Assembly: GCF_017356245.1 (NCBI RefSeq)
Contig: NZ_JAFMZZ010000004.1
Location: 751,163-815,162, forward strand
Source: Bordetella petrii
GTDB taxonomy: Bacteria > Pseudomonadota > Gammaproteobacteria > Burkholderiales > Burkholderiaceae_B
Length of the DNA stretch: 64,000 nucleotides
Reading direction: 5' to 3'
How positions within the stretch are numbered: position 1 is the stretch's first letter; each line of letters begins with the position of its first letter. The notes under the pieces are model-generated. The model saw nothing but the letters and a program-made list of their open reading frames with translations, had not been told where the DNA came from and did not search any database. A program made the translations under genes and the position numbers. This document shows, piece by piece, positions 42,419 to 52,766 of this stretch.

Positions 42419-42602
42419 GGTATTCACGGGAATATCCTAGATCATAGCGTGATTTGGCGTGTTTTCCCCTGCCGGCCCGGCATCCGGCCGCTGGCGGGGC
42501 GGGTCTGGCCCCGGGGGTGGCAGGCATGCTCGTATCCTGCCATTGGCGTCGGCCCGCGCATTGGGGTAGTGTATGGAAGTATCTATTCAGGGAGCCCGCA
42601 AT

Positions 42603-42953
42603 ATGCTCATCAAGTTCCATTCCAAGGCGGTCGCCGAGATCCTGATGCTGTCGCAGAATGCCGCCCCGCTGCTGCGCGCGGCCGGCAAGTCGTTCGGCGA
42701 CGATGTCCCCGAGCGCGGCGTGTTCACCTGCGAGCAGCTGCAGGCGGCCATCGACGGCATCGAGGCGGCCGTGGCCGCCGACGACCGCGCCCACGCCGGC
42801 GATGACGGCGACGCCGACCACCACGACAAGTCGCTGCATCCCGTGACGCAGGGCGTCGAGCTGCACCAGCGGGCGTTTCCGCTGCTGGACATGATGCGCC
42901 GCTCGCTGGCCGAAGGCGCCGACGTCACCTGGGAAGCCTCCAAGGGCTGGTAG
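42603..42953 (+). CDS. DUF1840 family protein
   Basis: A 116-residue cytoplasmic protein starting MLIKFHSKAVAEILMLSQNA, which I recognise as the DUF1840 family of betaproteobacteria. A central acidic His/Asp-rich patch (AHAGDDGDADHHD, residues 68-80) could bind metal, and the C terminus (LLDMMRRSLAEGADVTWEAS) is conserved in the family. It is divergent from the argS operon and has no known function. Confidence 0.7.
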   Translation: MLIKFHSKAVAEILMLSQNAAPLLRAAGKSFGDDVPERGVFTCEQLQAAIDGIEAAVAADDRAHAGDDGDADHHDKSLHPVTQGVELHQRAFPLLDMMRRSLAEGADVTWEASKGW

Positions 42954-42961
42954 GCCGGCAA

Positions 42962-42977
42962 TGTCGCAGGTGCGACA
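42962..42977. promoter_or_regulatory. inverted repeat between two small genes
   Basis: TGTCGCA-GG-TGCGACA, 7-bp arms, 64 bases before the next ATG and 9 bases after the DUF1840 stop. The loop is too small for a hairpin, so it is more likely an operator. Its binding factor is unknown. Confidence 0.35.
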
Positions 42978-43040
42978 GTCTCCGGCGCCCCGGCGCAGCA
43001 TACTGGCGCCACGTTTTCTTACACCTTACGGAGGCCTGCC

Positions 43041-43358
43041 ATGCGCAGCGACGTGACTGTCATATTCGACACCCGGCGGACCGTCGATCTGTCTGTGGAC
43101 GTGGCGCCTTCCCCGCAGGCCGCCAGCGACGCGCGCGACTGGTTCGAGGCCGCCTGGGACACGCTGGGCTGCGAGCCGCTGCGGCCCAGCGGCAAAGTGC
43201 TGCTGCTGGACAAGATCATGGGCGTGGCCGATGCGCTGGGCTACGACGTGCTGACGTCCGACGCCAAGGAAAGCCGCGAGTTCGCCCAGCACGCCGCCCT
43301 GGCGCTGGACAAGCCGCGCATCATCGTCGACCTGCCGGGGCTGTCGGTCGGCTATTGA
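43041..43358 (+). CDS. hypothetical small protein
   Basis: A 105-residue soluble protein that I do not recognise. It begins RSDVTVIFDTRRTVDLSVDV (a possible beta hairpin), has a Trp-containing helix (ARDWFEAAWDTLG) and ends with IIVDLPGLSVGY. ACGGAGG precedes the ATG at good distance, the codon use matches neighbours, and its stop codon lies in a symmetric terminator, so it is a real gene. A nearby inverted repeat upstream may regulate it. Confidence 0.65.
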   Translation: MRSDVTVIFDTRRTVDLSVDVAPSPQAASDARDWFEAAWDTLGCEPLRPSGKVLLLDKIMGVADALGYDVLTSDAKESREFAQHAALALDKPRIIVDLPGLSVGY

Positions 43359-43400
43359 ACCGCGCCGGCCCGGGGGCGGCGTCCGCCCCCGGGCTGGTTC
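43357..43400. terminator. bidirectional hairpin between convergent genes
   Basis: A perfect 12-bp stem, GCCCGGGGGCGG (43368-43379) with its complement (43383-43394) and a 3-base loop, flanked by a further matching GAACC/GGTTC pair at 43357-43361 and 43396-43400. The stop codons of both convergent genes lie at its base. No T tract is present. Confidence 0.65.
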
Positions 43401-44364
43401 ATTGCGGCGCGATGCCGGCCGTCTGTATCAGTTCGCGCAATCGCGCGATGTCGCTGGCGATCAATTTCCCGAAGGCTTCGGGCGTGCTCCAGGTGGGCTG
43501 CGCGGCCTGCGCCTGCAGCGCCTGAACCACCCCGGGGTCGGCCAGCGCCTGGCGCACCGCGCCATTCAGCAATGCGATAGCCGCCGGGGGCGTGCCCGCC
43601 GGCGCCACCAGCCCCAGCCAGGCCGAGAAATGGTAGCCCGGCAGCGTTTCCGCCACCGTGGGCACGCCGGGCAAGAGCGGGCTGTGGGCCTCGCCCGTGA
43701 CGGCCAGCGCCCGCAGGCGCCCCGACTGGATGTGCGGCAGCGCCACCGCCAGGCTCTCGAACGACAGGTCGATCTGCCCGCCCACCAGGTCTTTCATGGA
43801 CGGCGCGCTGCCCTTGTAGGCCACGTGCGTGGTCTTGATGCCGGCCATGCTGTCGAACAGCTCGCCGGACAGGTGCATCGATGTGCCCACGCCGGCCGAT
43901 CCCCGGTTCAGCTTGCCGGGGTGCGCGCGGGCGTAGCTGATCAGTTCGCCCAGCGTGCGCGCCGGCACCTGCTGCGGGTTCACCACCACCACCAGCGGGT
44001 AGGTGACCAGCATCGAGATCGGGGTGAAGTCCTTGATCGCGTCGTAATTCAGGTGCTTGTACAGCGACGGATTGGCGCCATGGGTGCTGATGGTGCCCAT
44101 CAGCAGCGTATAGCCGTCGGGCCGGGCCCGGGCGGCGGCGGCCGCCCCCAGGCTGCCGCCGCCGCCCGCGATGTTCTGCGCCACGACCGGCACGCCCAGT
44201 TCGGCCGACATGCGCTCGCCCACGACGCGCGCGGTCTGGTCGGTGGGGCCGCCGGCGGCCGCGCCCACGATGATGTGGATGGGTTTTTCGGGATAGCCGG
44301 CCTGGGCCAGCCAGGGAGCCGCGGCCAGCGCCGCGGCGGCCAGGAATGCTTGGCAGGTTTTCAT
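43399..44364 (-). CDS. Bug-family tripartite tricarboxylate transporter binding protein
   Basis: A 321-residue TctC/Bug protein. The signal peptide (MKTCQAFLAAAALAAAPWLA) precedes YPEKPIHIIVGAAAGGPTDQ; the usual PY/F-PxGG pocket sequence is changed to GAAAGGPTD, which may alter ligand choice. The ATG at 44364 begins the signal peptide; a longer in-frame reading is antisense filler. It is the last gene of the nine-gene operon from 50923 and follows another Bug gene after 23 bases. The two are quite different in sequence, so they may recognise different ligands. Confidence 0.9.
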   Translation of the reverse strand: MKTCQAFLAAAALAAAPWLAQAGYPEKPIHIIVGAAAGGPTDQTARVVGERMSAELGVPVVAQNIAGGGGSLGAAAAARARPDGYTLLMGTISTHGANPSLYKHLNYDAIKDFTPISMLVTYPLVVVVNPQQVPARTLGELISYARAHPGKLNRGSAGVGTSMHLSGELFDSMAGIKTTHVAYKGSAPSMKDLVGGQIDLSFESLAVALPHIQSGRLRALAVTGEAHSPLLPGVPTVAETLPGYHFSAWLGLVAPAGTPPAAIALLNGAVRQALADPGVVQALQAQAAQPTWSTPEAFGKLIASDIARLRELIQTAGIAPQ

Positions 44365-44387
44365 GGCAATGTCCTTGGCGGGGCCGT

Positions 44388-45392
44388 TCAGTTGGGCTTG
44401 ATGTGGGCGGTCTGGATGACCTGCCGCGCGCGGGCGGTCTCGGCCTTGATGAAGGCGGCGAACTGGTCGGGCGGGCCCGGCCGTTCGATCACGCCCAGCG
44501 CGTCCAGGCGCGCCTTCATGGCGGGTTCGTCCAGCGCGGCGCGCACGTCGTGGTTCAGGCGCGTCACGATGGCGGCCGGCGTGCCGGCCGGCGCCACCAG
44601 GCCCCACCAGACGGCTTCTTCATAGCCGGGCAGGCCCGCCTCGGCGGCGGTGGGCACATCGGGCAGGATGGCCAGGCGCTGCGGGGCGGCCACCGCCAGC
44701 GCGCGCAGGCGGCCGGCCTTGATGTGCTGCGCGGCCTCGGCCGGGTTGACCGCCATGTACGAAATGCGTCCGCCCAGCAGGTCGGTCATGGCGGGCGCGG
44801 CGCCGCGGTACGGCACGTGCAGCACGTCGATGCCGGCGGCGATCTTCAGCGATTCGCCGGCCAGGTGCGACGAACTGCCGTTGCCGGAACTCGCGTAGCT
44901 GAGCTTGCCCGGCGACTTGCGGGCGGTTTCCAGCAGCTCGCGCAGGCTGTGTATGGGCGAATCGGCGGGCACCACGATCATCAGCGGCGCATAGCCGATC
45001 TGCGCCACCGGCGCGAAGTCGCGCAGGCCATTGAAGCGCAGGTCCGGATACAGCGAATTGTTGGTGGCCAGCGAGTTGGCCGCCATCAGCAGCGTGTAGC
45101 CGTCGGGCGCCGCGTGGGCCGCGGCTTCCATGCCGATGTTCGAGCCGGCGCCCGGCTTGTTCTCGATCAGGATGGGCTGCCCGACGCGCGGCGCCAGGTA
45201 CTGGCCGGTCAGGCGCGCCAGGGCGTCGACCGCGCCGCCGGCGGTATAGGGCACGATGATGCGCAGGGGCTGCGACGGCCAGGCGGCGGCCTGGACGGCG
45301 CCGCCCCACAGGGCCAGGGTGGCCGCCAGCGCGGCCAGCAGCCGCTTGCCGGCCGGCAGACGGCCGGCCGTGGGGGAAATCAGTGTGAACAT
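44388..45392 (-). CDS. Bug-family tripartite tricarboxylate transporter binding protein
   Basis: A 334-residue TctC/Bug protein. A long signal peptide (about residues 1-36, ending GGAVQAAA) precedes WPSQPLRIIVPYTAGGAVDA and LIENKPGAGSNIGMEAAAHA. It lies 45 bases after the isomerase gene and 23 before a second Bug gene, all on the minus strand and within the TetR-flanked operon. It probably captures the substrate of this pathway. There is no membrane component nearby. Confidence 0.9.
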   Translation of the reverse strand: MFTLISPTAGRLPAGKRLLAALAATLALWGGAVQAAAWPSQPLRIIVPYTAGGAVDALARLTGQYLAPRVGQPILIENKPGAGSNIGMEAAAHAAPDGYTLLMAANSLATNNSLYPDLRFNGLRDFAPVAQIGYAPLMIVVPADSPIHSLRELLETARKSPGKLSYASSGNGSSSHLAGESLKIAAGIDVLHVPYRGAAPAMTDLLGGRISYMAVNPAEAAQHIKAGRLRALAVAAPQRLAILPDVPTAAEAGLPGYEEAVWWGLVAPAGTPAAIVTRLNHDVRAALDEPAMKARLDALGVIERPGPPDQFAAFIKAETARARQVIQTAHIKPN

Positions 45393-45437
45393 GTCTGTCT
45401 CCTGTATGGCGCATGCGCGCCTTGTCTTGTGGCCCGG

Positions 45438-46256
45438 TCAGGCGCGGTCCAGCGCCAGGCAGCGCTGCACGCATAGCCGGGTAACGTCGGCCGGGTCGCG
45501 TTCCCACCAGTCGGTCGAGAAAATCTCGACTTCATAGGGGCCGCGATAGCCGTTTGCTTCCAGGCGGCGCACCAGCCCGGCCACGTCGGCCGCGCCGTCG
45601 CCGACCATGGCGCGGTCGGTCACGGGATGGCGGGTGGGCACGCGCCAGTCGCACAGCTGCACGGTGGACACGGCAGCCAGGTAAGGCGGGGCCAGGTAGG
45701 TGTGCAGGTCGGGGTCCCACCAGCAATGGAAAACATCCAGCACCACGCTGGTGGCCCCGCCCAGGGCCTGGCACAGGCGGTGGGCCTGCGCCAGGGTGTT
45801 GACGCAGCCGCGCTCGGCCGCGTGCATGGGGTGGAACGGTTCGATGCCCAGGCTGACGCCGGCCTGGCGGGCGAAGGCCGCCGCATCCTGCAGCACTTCG
45901 AACAGCCGGCCGCGCGCGTCCTGCAGGCTGGCATGCGCGCCCATGCCCCCGCCCACGAACACCACGGTGGCCGCGCCGATCGCGGCCGCCTCGTCGATGG
46001 CCCGCCTGCAGTCTTCCAGCGCCGCGTGCGGCCCTCGCGCATCCAGCTGCGCCAGGTCGCCGGCCTTGCATAGCGACGGCACCCGCAGCCCGGTGTCGCG
46101 CAGCAGGCGGCGCGCCTGCGGCAGCCCGCATTCGGCGAGCTTGTCGCGCCACACGCCGATGCCGCCCACGCCCTGCCGCGCATAGCCCTGCGCCGCTTCG
46201 GCCAGCGACCAGCGCGGCGTGGTGATCTGGTTGATGGCCAGGCGTTGCGGTTCCAT
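45438..46256 (-). CDS. sugar phosphate isomerase/epimerase-like TIM-barrel protein
   Basis: A 272-residue xylose-isomerase-like TIM barrel (AP endonuclease 2 superfamily). It starts LAINQITTPRWSLAEAAQGY and has barrel-strand motifs such as ATVVFVGGGMG, VSLGIEPFHPM (metal Glu), VVLDVFHCWWDP (Asp, His), VQLCDWRVPTRHP and GYRGPYEVEIFS (C-terminal Glu). Metal ligands Glu, Asp, His and Glu are all in the expected places, so it is likely an active metal-dependent isomerase, epimerase or dehydratase. Its reaction is unknown; operon neighbours suggest a small keto or hydroxy acid substrate. Confidence 0.85.
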   Translation of the reverse strand: MEPQRLAINQITTPRWSLAEAAQGYARQGVGGIGVWRDKLAECGLPQARRLLRDTGLRVPSLCKAGDLAQLDARGPHAALEDCRRAIDEAAAIGAATVVFVGGGMGAHASLQDARGRLFEVLQDAAAFARQAGVSLGIEPFHPMHAAERGCVNTLAQAHRLCQALGGATSVVLDVFHCWWDPDLHTYLAPPYLAAVSTVQLCDWRVPTRHPVTDRAMVGDGAADVAGLVRRLEANGYRGPYEVEIFSTDWWERDPADVTRLCVQRCLALDRA

Positions 46257-46273
46257 GGGCGTGCCCCGCCGGC

Positions 46274-46570
46274 CTAGGCCAGCACGTCGCAGATCGTGAT
46301 CTGGCGGCTGACGATCCAGTCTTTGTAGGTCTCGCGCACGAACTTCAGGCCCGAGTTCTCCATGTGGTCGTCCAGCGCCGCGCGGCTGGTGTAGGCCTCG
46401 ACCAGGAACACCTTGTGCGGCTCGTCGTCGGGCAGCAGCACGTCGAACTGCAGGCATTCGCTTTCGCGCCGCGCGGTGCGGCTGGCGTGGCCGTGCATGA
46501 TGGTCAGGAACTTGTCGCGGTGGTCCGGCTTGATTTCGAACTCGACCACCAGCATTACTTTCTTCGTCAT
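46274..46570 (-). CDS. antibiotic biosynthesis monooxygenase (ABM) domain protein
   Basis: A 98-residue dimeric ferredoxin-like alpha/beta barrel protein: MLVVEFEIKPDHRDKFLTIM, then ESECLQFDVLLPDDEPHKVF and LVEAYTSRAALDDHMENSGL, all typical of ABM/YgiN-like proteins. The start at 46570 has AAAGGAG upstream; a longer in-frame reading to 46591 lacks this. Family members include quinol monooxygenases and enzymes acting on quinones or small metabolites without cofactor. It lies 17 bases upstream of the isomerase gene within the operon. Confidence 0.85.
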   Translation of the reverse strand: MTKKVMLVVEFEIKPDHRDKFLTIMHGHASRTARRESECLQFDVLLPDDEPHKVFLVEAYTSRAALDDHMENSGLKFVRETYKDWIVSRQITICDVLA

Positions 46571-46600
46571 CACAGTCTCCTTTGGTAGCAAGGCAAGGGG

Positions 46601-47392
46601 TTATCCGCGCAGCGCATCGATGTTGCGCACCTGCGCCACGCGTTCGATGTATTCCTGCGGCGGGGCCTGGTACAGCAGCTTGCGGCTGACGTGCACGCCG
46701 GTCAGCTGGCGCATGGCGACGGCCAGTTCGGCCGCCTTCACCAGCAGCCGGTAGCAGTCCAGCAGCGGCACGCCGTCGACCTCGAAAATGCCGCGCTGCG
46801 CCAGCAGGCTGGTGGACGGGCCGGCGGGGATGACCACTTCGGCGCCCTGGGCGATGCAGCGGCGGCTGGCGGCCAGAATCTGCGCCACGCAGTCGTCGCC
46901 CAGCGCCTGGTCGGTGAACACGGCATCGAAGCCGCGGATGTTGTCGAACTCGATGCCCTCGACGCTGCTCAGGCGGTCGCGCAGGCCGTAGCCGATGGGT
47001 ATTTCGCGATAGCGCGGCACCATCTTCATGTTGGGCACCACCAGGCCGAAGCGTTCGCCCATGGTGCAGGCATGGAAACAGCACACTTCCATGAATGACA
47101 CGACCGGGATGTCCATGATTTCGCGCAGCTCGACCAGGGCCGGGTCCAGCGAGTTGGCCAGCACGAAGGCGTCGTACCCGCCTTCTTTGCGGATGCGCAG
47201 TGCGTTGTCGATGATTTCGCGCACGTCGTAGTTCCAGAACAGGCGGTACTGATCGCCCAGGGCGCCCTGCCGGGTGCCGCGCACCTCGACCTGCGTGTCG
47301 GGGGCGGCGGCGCTGTCGCACAGGGCCTGCGTGGCCGCGATGAAATGCTGCATGCCTGTTTCCGAGGACACCAGCTGATACCAGAGTTTCAT
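46601..47392 (-). CDS. Asp/Glu racemase-superfamily protein lacking both catalytic cysteines
   Basis: A 263-residue protein of the Asp/Glu/hydantoin racemase fold, with the two halves IRKEGGYDAFVLANSLDPAL and AQGAEVVIPAGPSTSLLAQR occupying the places of the two catalytic motifs. Active racemases have Cys in each (CFGD-like and GCAG-like); here the sites read Asn80-Ser81 and Pro189-Ala190. Cysteines exist elsewhere (residues 104-105, 109) in FMEVCCFHACTMGERFG. Proton abstraction by two cysteines is thus impossible, and it may be a decarboxylase-, isomerase- or hydratase-like relative, or a ligand-binding protein. It lies between capA-like and ABM genes. Confidence 0.8.
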   Translation of the reverse strand: MKLWYQLVSSETGMQHFIAATQALCDSAAAPDTQVEVRGTRQGALGDQYRLFWNYDVREIIDNALRIRKEGGYDAFVLANSLDPALVELREIMDIPVVSFMEVCCFHACTMGERFGLVVPNMKMVPRYREIPIGYGLRDRLSSVEGIEFDNIRGFDAVFTDQALGDDCVAQILAASRRCIAQGAEVVIPAGPSTSLLAQRGIFEVDGVPLLDCYRLLVKAAELAVAMRQLTGVHVSRKLLYQAPPQEYIERVAQVRNIDALRG

Positions 47393-47452
47393 GATGAGGA
47401 TTCCTGTCAGTGGAAAGAAATGCGCCGTGGCGCGCCGGTTTGCCGGCGGCCC

Positions 47453-48796
47453 TCAAGGGCCGCGCAATACGCAAGCGTGTTCATCCAGCCGCAGCCGCGT
47501 GCCGTGGGCGCGGCTGCAGGCCTCGACCTTGGCCAGCAGCCGCATGCCGTCGGCGTTGCGGGCCAGGTGGGGCACGCCGGTGGGCGCGCCCTGCCCGGGC
47601 TGCCACAGCGTGACCGGATGGATGTCGAACGAGGGCGGCCCCTGCCGGTGCAGCGACAGCCGCAGCAGCAAGGCTTCCCAGTAGTCGGGCCGCTGGAAGA
47701 AGCCGGCGCGCTCGCGGCGCGTCTGGTAGGCCTGCGCCAGCGTGGCGTCGCGCATGGCATAGGCTTCCAGGAAGTCGGCCGGCTGGCGCGGATACAGGTA
47801 CGGCTGGAACACGAAGGCGCCGATGCCGTAGAAAATGGGCCGCCCCTGCCAGATCTCGACGGCGCGCACGCCGTGTTCGCCGTGGCCGATGACCGCGTCG
47901 GCGCCCGCCTCGATGGCGCGCCGGCAGGCGGCCACGGCGAACGCGGCGGGGTGCTGCGGGTCGCTGTCGTATTCGTGGGTGTGCAGGCAGGCCACCACGA
48001 AGTCCGCCTGTGTGCGGGCCTGCCGTATGCTGTCTTCCAGGTCGCGCAGGTCGTCCGGGGCGGGCCAGGACAGCGTGCCGCAGCCGTCGGAGCGGATGAA
48101 TTCGGCGCCGAAGAACGACAGCCGGTCGGCGTCCGCGGCGCCATGCTCGCGGTTGTAGTCGCGGGCCAGGGCGCGTTCGCGGTGCCGGCCCTGCGCCTGC
48201 GCCGGCAGCTGCGCGGCGATGCGCCGCAGCGCATCGAAGGCGGCGGCATCCACGCGGTACGCCGTGCCGAAGCGCAGCGGCGCCATTCCCGGGCGCCCGG
48301 GCAGCCCCACGCCGTGCCGCCCGGCCCGGGCCGGCGGCAGGTACGACGACGAAGCCGCCACCACCGCCAGCCGCCCGGCCGGCGTGTCCACACAGGCCGG
48401 CTGGCGGGCCGCGGCCAGGTCGGGGCCGGTGCCGGCCTGCGCGATGCCCAGCCGGCGCAGCGTATTCCAGGTGCTGGTCAGGCCGGCATCGCCGTAGTCG
48501 CCGGCATGGTTGTTGGCGGTGGACAGCACATCCATGCCCAGCCACCGCAGCTCGTCGCCCAGGCCGGCCGGCGCGCCGGCCCACGCGCCCGGCGCCTCGG
48601 CGGCGCCCGGCATATCGCCGTCCAGCAGCAGGCATTCCAGGTTGCCCAGGCGCACATCCGCGGTGCGCAGCATGTCCACGGCATCCAGAAATGCCGGGTG
48701 CTGCTCGCCGCGCAGCGCCGCGCCCAGGTACAGGTCGCCCACGGCGGCCAGGGTCAGCGCGCCGGCGGGCGCCGGGTCGGCCTGGCGCTGTTTCAT
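47453..48796 (-). CDS. CapA family metallophosphatase-like protein
   Basis: A 447-residue cytoplasmic member of the CapA/PgsA family (metallophosphoesterase fold). It has AVGDLYLGAALRG (metal-binding Asp), RLGNLECLL, STANNHAGDYGDAGLTSTWN, VACLHTHEYD and VIGHGEHGVRAVEIW, so the Asp, Asn-His and His ligands of the fold are present. Unlike CapA of capsule loci it has no signal or membrane anchor and is within a small-molecule catabolic operon. It overlaps the upstream cupin gene by four bases, so it belongs to the same unit. A hydrolytic function on a phosphoester or other linkage is inferred; poly-glutamate synthesis is unlikely. Confidence 0.82.
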   Translation of the reverse strand: MKQRQADPAPAGALTLAAVGDLYLGAALRGEQHPAFLDAVDMLRTADVRLGNLECLLLDGDMPGAAEAPGAWAGAPAGLGDELRWLGMDVLSTANNHAGDYGDAGLTSTWNTLRRLGIAQAGTGPDLAAARQPACVDTPAGRLAVVAASSSYLPPARAGRHGVGLPGRPGMAPLRFGTAYRVDAAAFDALRRIAAQLPAQAQGRHRERALARDYNREHGAADADRLSFFGAEFIRSDGCGTLSWPAPDDLRDLEDSIRQARTQADFVVACLHTHEYDSDPQHPAAFAVAACRRAIEAGADAVIGHGEHGVRAVEIWQGRPIFYGIGAFVFQPYLYPRQPADFLEAYAMRDATLAQAYQTRRERAGFFQRPDYWEALLLRLSLHRQGPPSFDIHPVTLWQPGQGAPTGVPHLARNADGMRLLAKVEACSRAHGTRLRLDEHACVLRGP

Positions 48797-49179
48797 GGTT
48801 CGCCCTGCTCGCCGCGCGCGAAGAACGGCCGGCCATCGTCGAACAGATTGGGCCGGTTGAATATCGACAGGAACACGGCGCCCTGCGGCGCGTGGGCGAT
48901 GTGGCGGTTGCCCGCGGGCCGCCAGACGAAGTCGCCCGCGCTGGCGCTGCCTTCATCGTCGACCAGCGTGCCTTCCAGCATGTAAGTCATTTCCAGGGCC
49001 GTGTGTTCGTGGCTGGGCACCACGGCGCCCGGGGCCAGCTTGAACAGGATGGTCGAGCGCCCGGCCTCGTCCTGGTACAGGATCTTCATTTCGATGCCGT
49101 CGAAATCCGTGGGCTGCCAGGGCATGCTGGCGGCCGCGACGAATCGGGAACGGTATTCCGGTGCATTGATGATCGGCAT
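48793..49179 (-). CDS. cupin domain protein
   Basis: A 128-residue single-domain cupin. The metal-binding motif VPSHEHTALEMTYMLEGTL (two His, one Glu, at about residues 55-63) and the second motif GDFVWRPAGNRHIAHAP (His near residue 95) are complete, so it can bind a metal. The N-terminal region resembles ChrR-type cupins. Stop and start overlap the CapA-like gene by ATGA. Possible roles are a dioxygenase, an isomerase or a small-molecule-binding accessory. Confidence 0.85.
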   Translation of the reverse strand: MPIINAPEYRSRFVAAASMPWQPTDFDGIEMKILYQDEAGRSTILFKLAPGAVVPSHEHTALEMTYMLEGTLVDDEGSASAGDFVWRPAGNRHIAHAPQGAVFLSIFNRPNLFDDGRPFFARGEQGEP

Positions 49180-49192
49180 GAGTCAGTCCGCG

Positions 49193-50041
49193 CTAAGGGG
49201 TGGGAAAAGAAAAGCGCCGCACCTGGAAGGGCCGGTCGTGCGCCAGTGAAGGCAGGCAGGCGCGCGTGCGCGCCGCGGCGTCCAGGTCCAGGTCGCACAG
49301 CAGGATGCCGGGGGCGTCGCCCGCTTCGGCCGCCACCGCGCCCCAGGGATCGACCACCAGCGAATGCCCATACGTGTGCCAGCGGCCGGGATGCTCGCCG
49401 CAGGTGGCGGCGGCGGCGACGTAGCAGCCGTTCTCGATGGCGCGGGCGCGCAGCAGCGCATGCCAGTGCGCGCCGCCGGTTTCCAGCGCGAATGCCGAAG
49501 GCACGCACAGCAGCACGGCGCCGGCCTGCGCCAGCGCGCGGTACAGGGCCGGAAAGCGCAGGTCATAGCAGATGCTCAACCCCACCGGCCCCCAGGGGGT
49601 CTCGGCCAGCGCCGCGTGCGCGCCCGCCTGGTAGGCGCGCGATTCGGCGATTTCGCGGCCGTCGGGCAGGCGGGCGTCGAACAGGTGCACCTTGTCGTAC
49701 TGCGCGGCGATGCGTCCGGCGTCATCGAGCAGGATGCCGCGGTTGGCCAGCTTTTCCGACGGCGGATCCAGCCTGACGGTCAGGCTGCCGGCCAGCAGCC
49801 AGACGGCGTGCTCGCGGGCGCAGTCCTGCAGGGCCCGCAGCGCCGGATGCGCGTGCATGCCGGCGGCGGCCTGCGCCATGGCGCGGCCGCTGCGGTCCAG
49901 GAAGGCGGCGAATTCCGGCAGCATCACCAGCTGCGCGCCGGCGGCCGCGGCTTCGTCCACGCGGGCGCGTATGGCGCGCAGATTGGCGTCCATGTCATTG
50001 CCGGGGCACAGCTGGACGCAGGCGATCCTGAGCATGGCCAT
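49193..50041 (-). CDS. carbon-nitrogen hydrolase (nitrilase superfamily)
   Basis: A 282-residue nitrilase-superfamily amidase. The catalytic triad is clear: Glu43 in LVMLPEFAAF, Lys117 in AQYDKVHLFD and Cys158 in VGLSICYDLRFPALY. The sequence context resembles Nit1/omega-amidase-like enzymes that hydrolyse small amides such as deaminated glutathione or 2-oxoglutaramate. Its start (ATG at 50041 or six bases later at 50035) is three bases after the BKACE stop, and the cupin follows after 13 bases. It probably hydrolyses an amide intermediate in this pathway. Confidence 0.9.
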   Translation of the reverse strand: MAMLRIACVQLCPGNDMDANLRAIRARVDEAAAAGAQLVMLPEFAAFLDRSGRAMAQAAAGMHAHPALRALQDCAREHAVWLLAGSLTVRLDPPSEKLANRGILLDDAGRIAAQYDKVHLFDARLPDGREIAESRAYQAGAHAALAETPWGPVGLSICYDLRFPALYRALAQAGAVLLCVPSAFALETGGAHWHALLRARAIENGCYVAAAATCGEHPGRWHTYGHSLVVDPWGAVAAEAGDAPGILLCDLDLDAAARTRACLPSLAHDRPFQVRRFSFPTP

Positions 50042-50044
50042 GGC

Positions 50045-50923
50045 TTACCGCGCCGCCAGCCCGAGCCGCTGGCGCGCCTGCGCCGGCGTGGCCAGGTCGC
50101 GGCCCAGCGCGGCGGCAATGCCGGCCGCCTTCTCGACCAGTTGCGCGTTCGATTGCGCCTGCACGCCCTTGTCCAGGTAGAAATTGTCTTCCAGGCCGAC
50201 GCGGATCTGGCCGTCCAGCAGCAGCGCCTGCGCCACCATGGGGAACTCGTGCCGCCCGATGCCGAAGGCGGCCCATACCGCGTCGCGGCCGATGGCATTG
50301 CGCAGCAGCAGCATGGTTTCGGTAGTGGCCGGCGCCCCCCACGGGATGCCCAGCGCGAACTGGAAGATCGAGTCGGCCGCGATGATGCCGTCGGCGATCA
50401 TCTTGTTGGCCAGCGCCAGGTGCCCGGTGTCGAAGATTTCCAGTTCGATCTTCACGCCGGCCGGAATGGCTGCCGCGATGGCCTGAATCTGGCTGGCGGT
50501 ATTGACCAGCGCGCCGGCGCCGAAATTCACCGAGCCCATGTCCAGGGTGCAGATTTCGGGCCGCAGTTCGGCCACATGGCGCACCCGTTCCTGCGGGGGG
50601 CGCACGTTCGAGCCGGGCGCCGCGCCGTTGGTCTGGTCCAGCGCGGGCACATAGCGCGCGCCCGGGCCCGTAGTCAGGTTGACGATGACGTCCGAGCCGC
50701 TGTCGCGAATGCGCTGCACGACTTCCCGGTAGTGCTCGACGGCCATGCTGGGTTTGCCGGTCTGCGGATCGCGCACGTGGATGTGGACGATGGCGGCCCC
50801 TGCCCGCGCCGCCTCGACCGAAGCCTGGGCGATCTGGCGCGGCGTGACGGGCAGCTGGGGGTATTTGGCGGCCACGTCGTCTCCGCCCGTGACGGCACAG
50901 GTCAGGATCACTGGATCGCTCAT
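50045..50923 (-). CDS. BKACE family beta-keto acid cleavage enzyme
   Basis: A 292-residue DUF849/BKACE protein, related to 3-keto-5-aminohexanoate cleavage enzyme (Kce). The Zn-binding HIH is in AAIVHIHVRDPQTGKP (His47, His49), and other family motifs are SDVIVNLTTGPGARYVP, EICTLDMGSVNFGAGALVNT and VKIELEIFDTGHLALAN. These enzymes cleave a beta-keto acid with acetyl-CoA to give acetoacetate and an acyl-CoA. It is first in the operon, has GGAGAG before the ATG, and an operator-like palindrome 17 bases upstream of the start. Confidence 0.92.
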   Translation of the reverse strand: MSDPVILTCAVTGGDDVAAKYPQLPVTPRQIAQASVEAARAGAAIVHIHVRDPQTGKPSMAVEHYREVVQRIRDSGSDVIVNLTTGPGARYVPALDQTNGAAPGSNVRPPQERVRHVAELRPEICTLDMGSVNFGAGALVNTASQIQAIAAAIPAGVKIELEIFDTGHLALANKMIADGIIAADSIFQFALGIPWGAPATTETMLLLRNAIGRDAVWAAFGIGRHEFPMVAQALLLDGQIRVGLEDNFYLDKGVQAQSNAQLVEKAAGIAAALGRDLATPAQARQRLGLAAR

Positions 50924-50939
50924 GCTTGTCTCTCCGAAT

Positions 50940-50959
50940 TAAAACAATCGATTGATTTA
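50940..50959. promoter_or_regulatory. near-perfect palindrome before the BKACE operon
   Basis: TAAAACAATCGATTGATTTA, symmetrical at 18 of 20 positions, centred on CAATCGATTG. It lies between the operon ribosome site and the AT-rich promoter region, facing the TetR gene; a TetR dimer site is the simplest reading. Confidence 0.65.
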
Positions 50960-51247
50960 TTTTTTGGGCGTGTTGAGCGGAAAATCCCGGCTCATCTGCC
51001 GCGTTATTAAATTGAATCCTAGTATTTGCGATAAATTACGGCAAGCAGTTTTTGAAATAAGAGACTTTTGTTTATAATTTCTATCCAATAGGTCGGAATT
51101 CTATGGAATTGTTCGATAAGACCCTGATAAAAAATAAACAGTTGTTTTAAATCGGGCCCGAATGGCCCTGTAAGATGCCGAAGCCGCTATAACCGTCCCT
51201 GTGCGGCCACGCGCCCACTCGTACCCTTCGTTGTTGCTGCCACTTTC
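50960..51247. promoter_or_regulatory. AT-rich divergent promoter region, no gene
   Basis: This and the adjoining palindrome form the 324-base gap between the BKACE operon and the TetR gene, the longest gene-free stretch in the window. About 50990-51150 is clearly richer in A and T than its surroundings, with runs such as TTATTAAATTG, TTTGTTTATAATTTC and GATAAAAAATAAACAG. I found no plausible reading frame or RNA gene in it. It most likely holds promoters in both directions and binding sites for a nucleoid protein or the TetR regulator. Confidence 0.55.
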
Positions 51248-51958
51248 ATGAACACTTCGAAGCCGGCCTCCGAGGCCGCCCTTGCCGCCGTACCCGCCAA
51301 AGCCCGCACCGCCCTGGGCGAGCAGACGCGCACCGAGATCCTGGACGTGGCCGAGACAATCTGCGCGCGCGAAGGGTTCGAGGGGCTGTCCATCCGCGCC
51401 ATCGCGAATGTGGCGGGCGTGAACGTGGCGGCGATCAGCTACTACTTCGGCTCCAAGCGCCAGCTGTTCGAGGCCATGTTCCGGCGCCGCGTGGTGCCGG
51501 TGAACGAAGAGCGCCTGGCCATGCTCGGCCAGTGCCGGCTGCGGCAGGGCGGCGACTACCTGAAAAGCGTGATCCGCGCCTTCATCACGCCGCCCATGAA
51601 ACTGACCGACTTTGTCGACCCCAGCGGGCGTCCGGCGCTGGTGGTCATGCAGTTCCTGGCGCGTGTGTTCGCCATGCCGGGTGAAGACGCGTTCTTGCTG
51701 GAGTACTACGAGCCGGTGCGCAGCCGCTTCGTCGAGGCCCTGTGCCAGGGCTTGCCCGACTTGCAGCTAGAGGACGTCATCTGGCGCTACAACCTGATGG
51801 TGGGCGCGCTGATCTACGCCATGGCGGGCACGGTGCGCATGACGCGCGTGCCGCAGGCGTTTCCCGACAGCGCGCCGCATGCTCCGGCCTCGGCCGACGA
51901 GGCCATCGGCCAGATGGTGCGGTTCTTGAGCGCGGGCATGCGCGCGCCCAAGGCCTGA
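51248..51958 (+). CDS. TetR/AcrR family transcriptional regulator
   Basis: A 236-residue TetR-type regulator. The HTH domain is at about residues 30-80 (RTEILDVAETICAREGFEGL, SIRAIANVAGVNVAAISYYF, GSKRQLFEAMF); the C-terminal helical domain is of the type with a DUF1956-like motif. It is divergent from the nine-gene BKACE operon and probably represses it through the palindrome at 50940. The last genes on the other side (Ugp-type permease) are convergent, so they are not likely targets. Confidence 0.9.
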   Translation: MNTSKPASEAALAAVPAKARTALGEQTRTEILDVAETICAREGFEGLSIRAIANVAGVNVAAISYYFGSKRQLFEAMFRRRVVPVNEERLAMLGQCRLRQGGDYLKSVIRAFITPPMKLTDFVDPSGRPALVVMQFLARVFAMPGEDAFLLEYYEPVRSRFVEALCQGLPDLQLEDVIWRYNLMVGALIYAMAGTVRMTRVPQAFPDSAPHAPASADEAIGQMVRFLSAGMRAPKA

Positions 51959-51965
51959 GCAGGCC

Positions 51966-52766
51966 CTAGCGTATCCCGGCGCGCATGAACGACTGCACGA
52001 ACTGCCGCTGGAACAGCAGGAACCCCACCAGCAGCGGCGCGGCCGACAGCAGCGTGGCTGCCGTGATGACCGACCAGTCGATGCCCTGGTCGGTGGCGGC
52101 GAACACCTGCAGGCCCACGGTCAACGGCCGCGACTCCACCGAGTTGGTGATGATCAGCGGCCACAGGAAGTTGTTCCAGTGGTGGCTGACCGATACCAGG
52201 CCATAGGCCACATAGATGGGCCTGGCCAGCGGCACGTACACCTTCATCAGCACCTGCAGCGGCCCGGCGCCTTCCACGCGCGCGGCTTCTTCCAGCTCGC
52301 GCGGCACGGTCTTGAAGGTTTGCCGCAGCAGGAAGATGCCGAAGGCCGAGGCGAAGTACGGCAGGCCCACCGCGAACACCGTATCGCGCACGCCCAGCAG
52401 GCTCATCGAGCGGTAGTTTTCCACCAGCAGCACATCGGGCATGATCATCAGCTGCAGCAGCACCAGCATGAAGACCAGGTCGCGCCCGCGGAATTCGAAG
52501 CGGGCGAAGGCATAGCCCGCCAGGGTCGACAGCACCAGCTGCGCCGCCAGCACCATGGTGACCAGCATGAAGGTGTTCAGGAAATAGCGCGGGAACGGCG
52601 CCGCGTGCCAGGCGCGGCTGAAGTTCTCGAGCGTCAGGGGGGCCAGCAGGTCGAAGCGGGTGGCGTAGGCGGGGGGATGGAACGCGGCCCAAAGCGCATA
52701 GGCCAGCGGCAGTATCCATAGCAGGCCAAGCAGCCAGGCGCCCAGGGTGTCGAGCTTGCGGGTCAT
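51966..52766 (-). CDS. ABC transporter permease, UgpE/MalG-type
   Basis: A 266-residue inner-membrane permease with about six helices. The EAA motif that contacts the ATPase is EEAARVEGAGPLQVLMKVYVP cut here at residues 160-180 (EEAARVEGAGPLQVLMKVY). It begins with its ATG overlapping the stop codon of the first permease (ATGA). It is the last gene of the operon ATPase - binding protein - permease - permease. The family imports sugars or glycerol-3-phosphate; here linkage to a phosphodiesterase and a shared operator favour an organophosphate. Confidence 0.9.
   Translation of the reverse strand: MTRKLDTLGAWLLGLLWILPLAYALWAAFHPPAYATRFDLLAPLTLENFSRAWHAAPFPRYFLNTFMLVTMVLAAQLVLSTLAGYAFARFEFRGRDLVFMLVLLQLMIMPDVLLVENYRSMSLLGVRDTVFAVGLPYFASAFGIFLLRQTFKTVPRELEEAARVEGAGPLQVLMKVYVPLARPIYVAYGLVSVSHHWNNFLWPLIITNSVESRPLTVGLQVFAATDQGIDWSVITAATLLSAAPLLVGFLLFQRQFVQSFMRAGIR

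Follow-up and report, generated by a model that had tools for sequence, protein, structure and literature searches.

Enzymes of the BKACE family (DUF849), of which Kce (PDB 2Y7D) is a canonical representative, do not all act by cleavage. According to the available part of a preprint, BsfD of flavophos biosynthesis (PDB 9ZSC) acetylates 3-OBPn to 2,4-dioxopentylphosphonate and cleaves nothing (PMC12871164), and a survey of the family, as retold in the available part of another article, includes a group, G7 (139/725), that was inactive on every substrate tested (PMC4922564). Two further proteins are pertinent to the locus described here: the lasso-peptide epimerase MslH (PDB 8GQ9), whose metal and catalytic residues are D11, E44, N87, H88, D91, H259, H261, and H295 (PMC10406935), and PsrA of Pseudomonas, for which the available part of a published account gives the binding site C/G-AAAC-N2-4-GTTT-G/C (PMC13104628). 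This study concerns a stretch of 64,000 nucleotides from Bordetella petrii (contig NZ_JAFMZZ010000004.1, positions 751,163 to 815,162), hereafter the window, in which relatives of these three proteins are encoded by a set of nine co-directional genes and a divergent TetR-family gene. Because the set is conserved in other genomes and PsrA-type boxes lie at its predicted promoters, these genes very probably behave as one regulated unit. On balance, we read them as a single catabolic module, repressed by a PsrA-type TetR protein, that would use a small chiral organic acid through the order of steps proposed below.

Nine open frames occupy the minus strand between 43399 and 50923 with 3 to 60 bases between genes and one ATGA overlap, as an initial annotation of this DNA had described, and its family names agree with Pfam, which identified all ten families, each with a score above the curated cut-off. 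From 50923 downward, and then on the other side of the promoter region, the features are as follows.

50045..50923, minus strand: BKACE-family (DUF849) enzyme (Pfam PF05853, 317 bits vs. a cut-off of 24.8; F164, R90; metal ligands H47, H49, E245)
49193..50041, minus strand: carbon-nitrogen hydrolase, Nit1/omega-amidase-like, here the nitrilase (Pfam PF00795, 184 bits; Glu-Lys-Cys triad)
48793..49179, minus strand: single-domain cupin, ChrR-like (Pfam PF12973, 76 bits; 3-His-1-Glu site H57, H59, E63, H93)
47453..48796, minus strand: CapA/PGA_cap-fold protein of the MslH type, candidate metal-dependent epimerase (Pfam PF09587, 159 bits)
46601..47392, minus strand: Asp/Glu/hydantoin racemase-fold protein (Rac) with neither catalytic cysteine
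46274..46570, minus strand: ABM-domain protein, LsrG-like (Pfam PF03992, 53 bits; LsrG 2gff, E 2e-5)
45438..46256, minus strand: xylose-isomerase-like TIM barrel (Pfam PF01261, 114 bits; 3qc0, 229 bits)
44388..45392, minus strand: Bug/TctC extracytoplasmic solute receptor 1 (Bug1; Pfam PF03401, 261 bits)
43399..44364, minus strand: Bug/TctC extracytoplasmic solute receptor 2 (Bug2; Pfam PF03401, 242 bits)
50939..50956, no strand: candidate operator site B, degenerate, just 5′ of the BKACE ribosome-binding site (12/18 to the Allopusillimonas palindrome)
51133..51150, no strand: predicted operator site A (AAACN4GTTT at 51136-51147; 15/18 to the Allopusillimonas palindrome)
51248..51958, plus strand: TetR-family regulator, PsrA-like (Pfam PF17939 and PF00440; NCBIfam PsrA, 94.7 bits)

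The successive intervals measure 3 (BKACE-nitrilase), 13 (nitrilase-cupin), -4 (cupin-CapA, the ATGA overlap), 60 (CapA-Rac), 27 or 30 (Rac-ABM, depending on the ABM start codon, most likely the ATG at 46570), 17 (ABM-TIM), 45 (TIM-Bug1), and 23 bases (Bug1-Bug2). The TetR and BKACE starts are separated by 324 bases, and the region between the two genes has a GC content of 43% vs. 69% for the whole window. The limits of the module are clear, since the genes on both flanks converge on it, namely a gene at 43041-43358 on the left and Ugp-type ABC genes on the right. The latter, located beyond TetR, were considered as module members and set aside: they are also adjacent in Bordetella sp. BOR01 but are unmatched in the five Pigmentiphaga-type loci described below.

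The ten families recur together in rearranged order, which makes a chance assembly very unlikely. A profile built from a 30-sequence alignment of Rac and used in one scan of genome contigs yielded 25 loci, seven of which encode a Rac protein of at least 79% identity, and six of these seven carry all ten families together. Gene order in Bordetella sp. BOR01 (L005) is the same as in the window. At L006-L010 (three Pigmentiphaga, one Alcaligenaceae, and one Burkholderiales record), the ten families form two divergent units, one made of BKACE, nitrilase, and cupin reading away from TetR, the other of TetR followed by co-directional Bug, CapA, Rac, TIM, ABM, and Bug genes. The genome of Allopusillimonas soli (L011, apparently on one contig with L068 and L095) contains a unit composed of TetR, Bug, CapA, Rac, TIM, ABM, Bug, and cupin, and, about 10 kb away, BKACE and nitrilase beside a second TetR gene (51% identity); matches to ABC permeases near this module (approximately 24-30% identity) were not counted as its parts. 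Clustering of the homologues in other genomes, which the initial annotation had named as a check, is therefore observed in the BOR01, Pigmentiphaga-type, and Allopusillimonas loci. At the other 18 Rac loci (Rac 55-65% identical, one fragment 72%), CapA, TIM, ABM, BKACE, and nitrilase were unmatched at 1e-4 in the DNA compared, which for some loci covers 3-5 kb only; in one of them, from Ramlibacter (L020), Rac clusters with Bug, TetR, and cupin. As for the surroundings, the module of L008 has an S-adenosylmethionine synthetase gene on one side and, on the other, a helicase-like frame followed by a diaminopimelate epimerase gene; the synthetase and diaminopimelate epimerase genes are members of gene clusters in all five Pigmentiphaga-type loci, and a phage-integrase-type gene lies farther along from the module in L007.

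The distribution of the module is thin. A CapA copy of at least 52% identity was found in 9 of 268 genomes of the family, and Rac and TIM adjoin CapA in all nine. Conversely, no Rac gene was present within flanks of about 1.5 kb at 21 loci with other CapA-family matches (the search covered loci from 30 of 47 matching genomes), nor in the wider stretches around eight CapA relatives (L060-L067). Rac is matched at 1e-60 in six of 399 genomes of the order, those of the studied strain and Allopusillimonas among them, and at 1e-100 in one of 399 genomes of another family, while the only BKACE match at 1e-100 among 398 genomes of the phylum is that of the studied genome. The stretches around the five other Rac matches (L106, L119, L121, L122, and L123) are devoid of the module, and the 18 genomes behind L011-L029 include seven with BKACE relatives at 1e-70, only the Allopusillimonas one exceeding 60% identity. 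No Rac match was obtained at 1e-30 among 72,556 plasmid records. Comparison by eye of the best 120 rows each for Rac and BKACE revealed eight source-record lengths common to both lists, and among 20 CapA proteins the source record equals in length that of a Rac protein in seven cases and that of a BKACE protein in five. On this basis the genes may be linked in Variovorax sp. PBS-H4, Hydrogenophaga sp., and Bradyrhizobium sp. NP1 as well, bearing in mind that records of equal length need not be identical and that presence on one chromosome need not mean adjacency.

The regulator and its predicted sites supply the second line of evidence. The best NCBIfam model for the TetR protein is PsrA (NF053516), with 94.7 bits and hence below the cut-off of 300. 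The window contains a single exact match to AAACN4GTTT (0.05 expected), at 51136-51147 in the TetR-BKACE intergenic region; it conforms to the AAAC(N2-4)GTTT core of the PsrA motif, as given in the available part of PMC13104628, and lacks the outer G/C. An operator consensus of 18 positions was derived from the TetR-BKACE intergenic region of Allopusillimonas, which contains two near-perfect palindromes. The best score against it in the window is the 15/18 of site A, a value that one shuffle in 2000 of the window's intergenic region also reached. The near-palindrome that the initial annotation proposed as operator does exist, at 50937-50962, but it overlaps the weaker site B, whose score of 12/18 is also found elsewhere in the window, and the better site is the one at 51133-51150. 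The BKACE leader at site B resembles, by eye, the Pigmentiphaga box located before Bug1. In all five Pigmentiphaga-type loci, this box lies between TATAAT and the ribosome-binding site, and the equivalent place before BKACE is occupied by a near copy (AAAC, four bases, GTAT); judged from position, this layout is that of a repressor governing both units. Layout, conserved set, and boxes together agree with the earlier view of one operon under the divergent TetR protein. The resemblance to PsrA of Pseudomonas, limited by the sub-threshold model score, differs in the proposed target, here the module itself (no search for other targets was made). With its sharp limits and conserved content, the set offers a regulator, boxes, and promoters that can be tested together, such that the substrate should be findable by screening.

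Other matches to the box were noted. An exact AAACN4GTTT sequence at L070 8484-8495, in the genome of the studied strain, with a racemase-fold paralogue and a Bug gene at a distance of about 2 kb, is possibly a second site of the module TetR protein, and L055 also holds an exact match. Matches inside genes (the second one of L020, at 4374, and L011, at 7897) were not counted as operators.

The BKACE enzyme of the module departs from the canonical type. Its metal ligands are kept in all 120 relatives listed (the best 120 of 7897, window protein included). However, alignment to 2Y7D places F164 at the position of the active-site tyrosine (Tyr145 of CcaKce), a supposedly catalytic residue of the characterised BKACEs, and alignment to 9ZSC, 3C6C, and 2Y7D reveals a longer loop after strand three, with R90 at the place of BsfD Arg91. 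Phe and Arg occur jointly in the same 120 relatives and in 14 of 14 loci with at least 46% identity, whereas two BKACE paralogues in the same genome have Tyr and no Arg. In the available part of the BsfD preprint, the arginine lies near the phosphonate and is unique among characterised members, and the phenylalanine is described as possibly important for the altered chemistry, alongside CoA movement (PMC12871164). The statement of the initial annotation that this enzyme cleaves beta-keto acids is not supported, as it bears both marks of BsfD. In a tree of 25 rows, all Phe proteins fall into one clade of 22 (support 97/96), within which BsfD and 3C6C form a sister branch (90/83) to that of the window enzyme; forks between branches have supports of 81-90 and long branches are present. 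The Phe, without the Arg, is also found in structure 3C6C, which was deposited as a cleavage enzyme; by itself, the Phe perhaps does not rule out cleavage. Unlike BsfD, which belongs to a phosphonate biosynthetic cluster, the window enzyme has no phosphonate-biosynthesis family (Pfam) among the nine genes of its module, and its reaction could be either acetyl transfer as in BsfD or cleavage. The module places the Phe/Arg branch of DUF849, of at least 120 nearest relatives, in a catabolic setting, and the automatic name of many of its members, 3-keto-5-aminohexanoate cleavage protein, may mislead.

The nitrilase accompanies this enzyme and its closer orthologues. Its Glu-Lys-Cys triad is present in the window protein and in nine of nine relatives compared, and the model for deaminated glutathione amidase (NF043013) gives 211.7 bits, below its cut-off of 500. 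In each of the five lineages examined in which the BKACE orthologue reaches about 60% identity or more (Bordetella, the Pigmentiphaga group, Allopusillimonas, Caballeronia sp. NK8, and Sinorhizobium meliloti pAK76), the nitrilase gene comes directly after it, which supports, without proving it, an amide-bearing intermediate common to both enzymes. The initial annotation had proposed a substrate with amide and beta-keto acid character; this pairing favours it, but no nitrilase match was found within the flanks of six BKACE relatives of about 47-55% identity (L101-L105 and L112). The cupin, whose 3-His-1-Glu site is invariant in 15 of 15 aligned proteins (window protein included), would act close to these two enzymes in the route, given that the three genes form a cassette elsewhere: on the S. 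meliloti plasmid pAK76 (L107 11992-17249), the three genes are adjacent, encode proteins 70, 53, and 69% identical to those of the window, respectively, and occur without the rest of the module in the 25 kb examined. Unlike in the window, an IclR regulator and MmgE/PrpD lie upstream of this cassette, and proton-translocating transhydrogenase, ABC transporter, and dehydrogenase genes lie downstream. In Caballeronia, the surroundings comprise an NMT1-type ABC transporter, a short-chain dehydrogenase/reductase (SDR), an aldehyde dehydrogenase, a 3-hydroxyisobutyrate-dehydrogenase-like protein, MmgE/PrpD, and IclR. The match between the cupin and 3BAL, an enzyme that cleaves acetylacetone and that the diketone version of the route given below would call for, was too weak to use (E 0.11).

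The CapA-fold protein had been called a CapA-like metallophosphatase, a name that holds for its Pfam family but not for its closest relative, which is the epimerase MslH among both NCBIfam models (NF038314, 215.3 bits, below the cut-off of 700) and solved chains (8gq9, 190 bits over residues 14-437). The eight metal and catalytic residues of MslH all have counterparts, namely D21, E54, N96, H97, D100, H272, H274, and H308, and these are also kept in seven of seven module loci. Since the protein is MslH-like with these eight residues, it is likelier to be an epimerase than a capsule enzyme, a role that was rejected on the same similarity and on the lack of a signal peptide, as judged by eye. 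In a large protein collection, among the best 8000 candidates by shared words, 20 CapA proteins (the window's included) are at least 50% identical and the next is at 37%, a drop that marks the type as a discrete group. Unlike MslH, this protein stands in an operon with no lasso-peptide genes. At L064 8724-13139 (apparently Pigmentiphaga), genes for a 2-hydroxyacid dehydrogenase, a TauD-type dioxygenase, and a Bug receptor are lined up with that of a CapA relative (34%), which is a further MslH-like protein in a probable catabolic operon.

Rac and the TIM barrel protein also deviate from their characterised relatives. Rac was initially described as devoid of cysteines; in fact it has cysteines, only not at the two catalytic positions, which profile alignment assigns to N80 and A190 (N80 is possibly off by one, but residues 79-82 include no Cys). 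It thereby differs from the allantoin and hydantoin racemases (PDB 3QVJ and 5LFD), in which these cysteines are catalytic, and alanine also stands, by eye, at the place equivalent to C188 of arylmalonate decarboxylase (motif in PMC4996985). The presumed metal set of the TIM barrel is E139, D174, Q200, and E243, with Gln where solved relatives have His, in seven of seven module copies. D-tagatose 3-epimerase-like TIM barrels have a Glu-Asp-His-Glu metal set, from which the window protein departs by this substitution. The module would add a probable catabolic use for MslH-like metal-dependent epimerases and cysteine-less racemase-fold enzymes.

These parts can be arranged into a route, although the particular order, from capture by Bug receptors to acetyl-CoA chemistry, is tentative and doubtful in its details. 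Bug receptors usually serve small acids. Those of the module would capture such an acid, organic and chiral, on the outer side of the cytoplasmic membrane, after which the MslH-like epimerase, Rac, the TIM-barrel isomerase, and the LsrG-like ABM protein, whose folds are recognizable, might convert the acid to one form; such rearranging enzymes would need few cofactors, and the nine genes include neither a CoA ligase nor an NAD enzyme family. The nitrilase-fold enzyme, with its triad intact, could then open an amide or lactam, and the BKACE-clade enzyme would join the resulting beta-keto acid with acetyl-CoA, by transfer as BsfD does or by cleavage, with the cupin acting near these two steps. 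The TetR protein, bound to the AAACN4GTTT promoter boxes, would be released by an acid of the pathway, a product, or an acyl-CoA, by analogy with PsrA. Little credence can be given to a more elaborate version of this route, of build-up followed by breakdown, in which a BsfD-type enzyme acetylates the beta-keto acid, CO2 is lost to leave a 1,3-diketone, and the cupin splits the latter with oxygen; were it true, the same logic could extend to other Phe/Arg-branch DUF849 members. As the initial annotation had indicated for the pathway, no paper describing this gene set turned up in the open full-text literature (subscription journals lie mostly outside this scope). An uncharacterised catabolic operon is a familiar kind of object; the novelty lies in the conservation of this set, in the logic of its operators, and in the context that it provides for a non-canonical DUF849 branch.

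Several observations weigh against a single regulated catabolic module as set out above. No transporter membrane component is present among the module genes, no box could be recognized with confidence at the Bug1 unit of Allopusillimonas, and a consensus promoter scan found no site in 43000-52000. In 12 of 29 loci, no more than 300 bases separate a racemase-fold gene from a Bug gene, so this pairing is common outside the module. Moreover, the window BKACE groups with rhizobial proteins (99/96) and not with those of Pigmentiphaga; the gene was therefore probably exchanged between lineages, and the parts of the module need not share one exact substrate. The idea of two or more unrelated operons adjacent by chance can draw on the occurrence of BKACE, nitrilase, and cupin alone in the examined 25 kb of pAK76 and on the separation of the halves into distinct units in Pigmentiphaga and Allopusillimonas. 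This is nevertheless very improbable, given that the ten families are reunited in differing arrangements and that TetR copies and boxes accompany both Pigmentiphaga halves.

Two other explanations concern the chemistry of the module. If the BKACE were a true beta-keto acid cleaving enzyme, the nitrilase would free a beta-keto acid from an amide and the canonical cleavage of this acid would be the last step of the pathway. The Pfam match, the intact metal ligands, the nitrilase pairing in five lineages, and the Phe of 3C6C at the Tyr position would all be compatible with this. It is still unlikely in view of the Phe for Tyr and the extra Arg throughout the best 120 relatives, as opposed to the Tyr-bearing, Arg-less paralogues of the same genome, and the inactive group G7, to which the window enzyme may or may not belong, also counts against it. 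Alternatively, the module could serve to detoxify or salvage a natural product that is peptide-like or a lactam, and the MslH-like protein would then act on the alpha carbon of an amino acid. The similarity to MslH points this way, and so do a CapA-family gene of Sinorhizobium medicae beside amidase and ABC transporter genes and another of Haladaptatus near D-aminoacylase, alanine racemase, and creatininase-family genes. These two relatives are, however, just about 31-34% identical, the module has no peptidase, and Bug receptors are generally dedicated to small acids, which together make this explanation improbable. The reading as a catabolic module for a small chiral organic acid is thus the one retained here.

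A few minor features complete the description of the locus and of its relatives. The GC content of the module (71% vs. 69% for the window) gives no sign of a recent foreign origin, no RNA family reached its gathering score in 42500-52500, and terminator-like sites number 5 vs. 5.2 expected. The genome of the studied strain has three more racemase-fold paralogues (L002, L003, and L004), each located 67-209 bases from a Bug receptor gene. Loci L012-L015 carry tandem cysteine-less racemase-fold genes, whose products, 59-62% and 64-65% identical to the window Rac, are perhaps two subunits. Finally, in Ramlibacter (L020 3540-13445), genes for Rac, Bug, TetR, cupin, SDR, an ABC transporter, a second Rac, an NMT1-type receptor, and a TPP enzyme follow one another in one direction, and a TTCAAACN4GTTTGA box lies before the first Rac gene.

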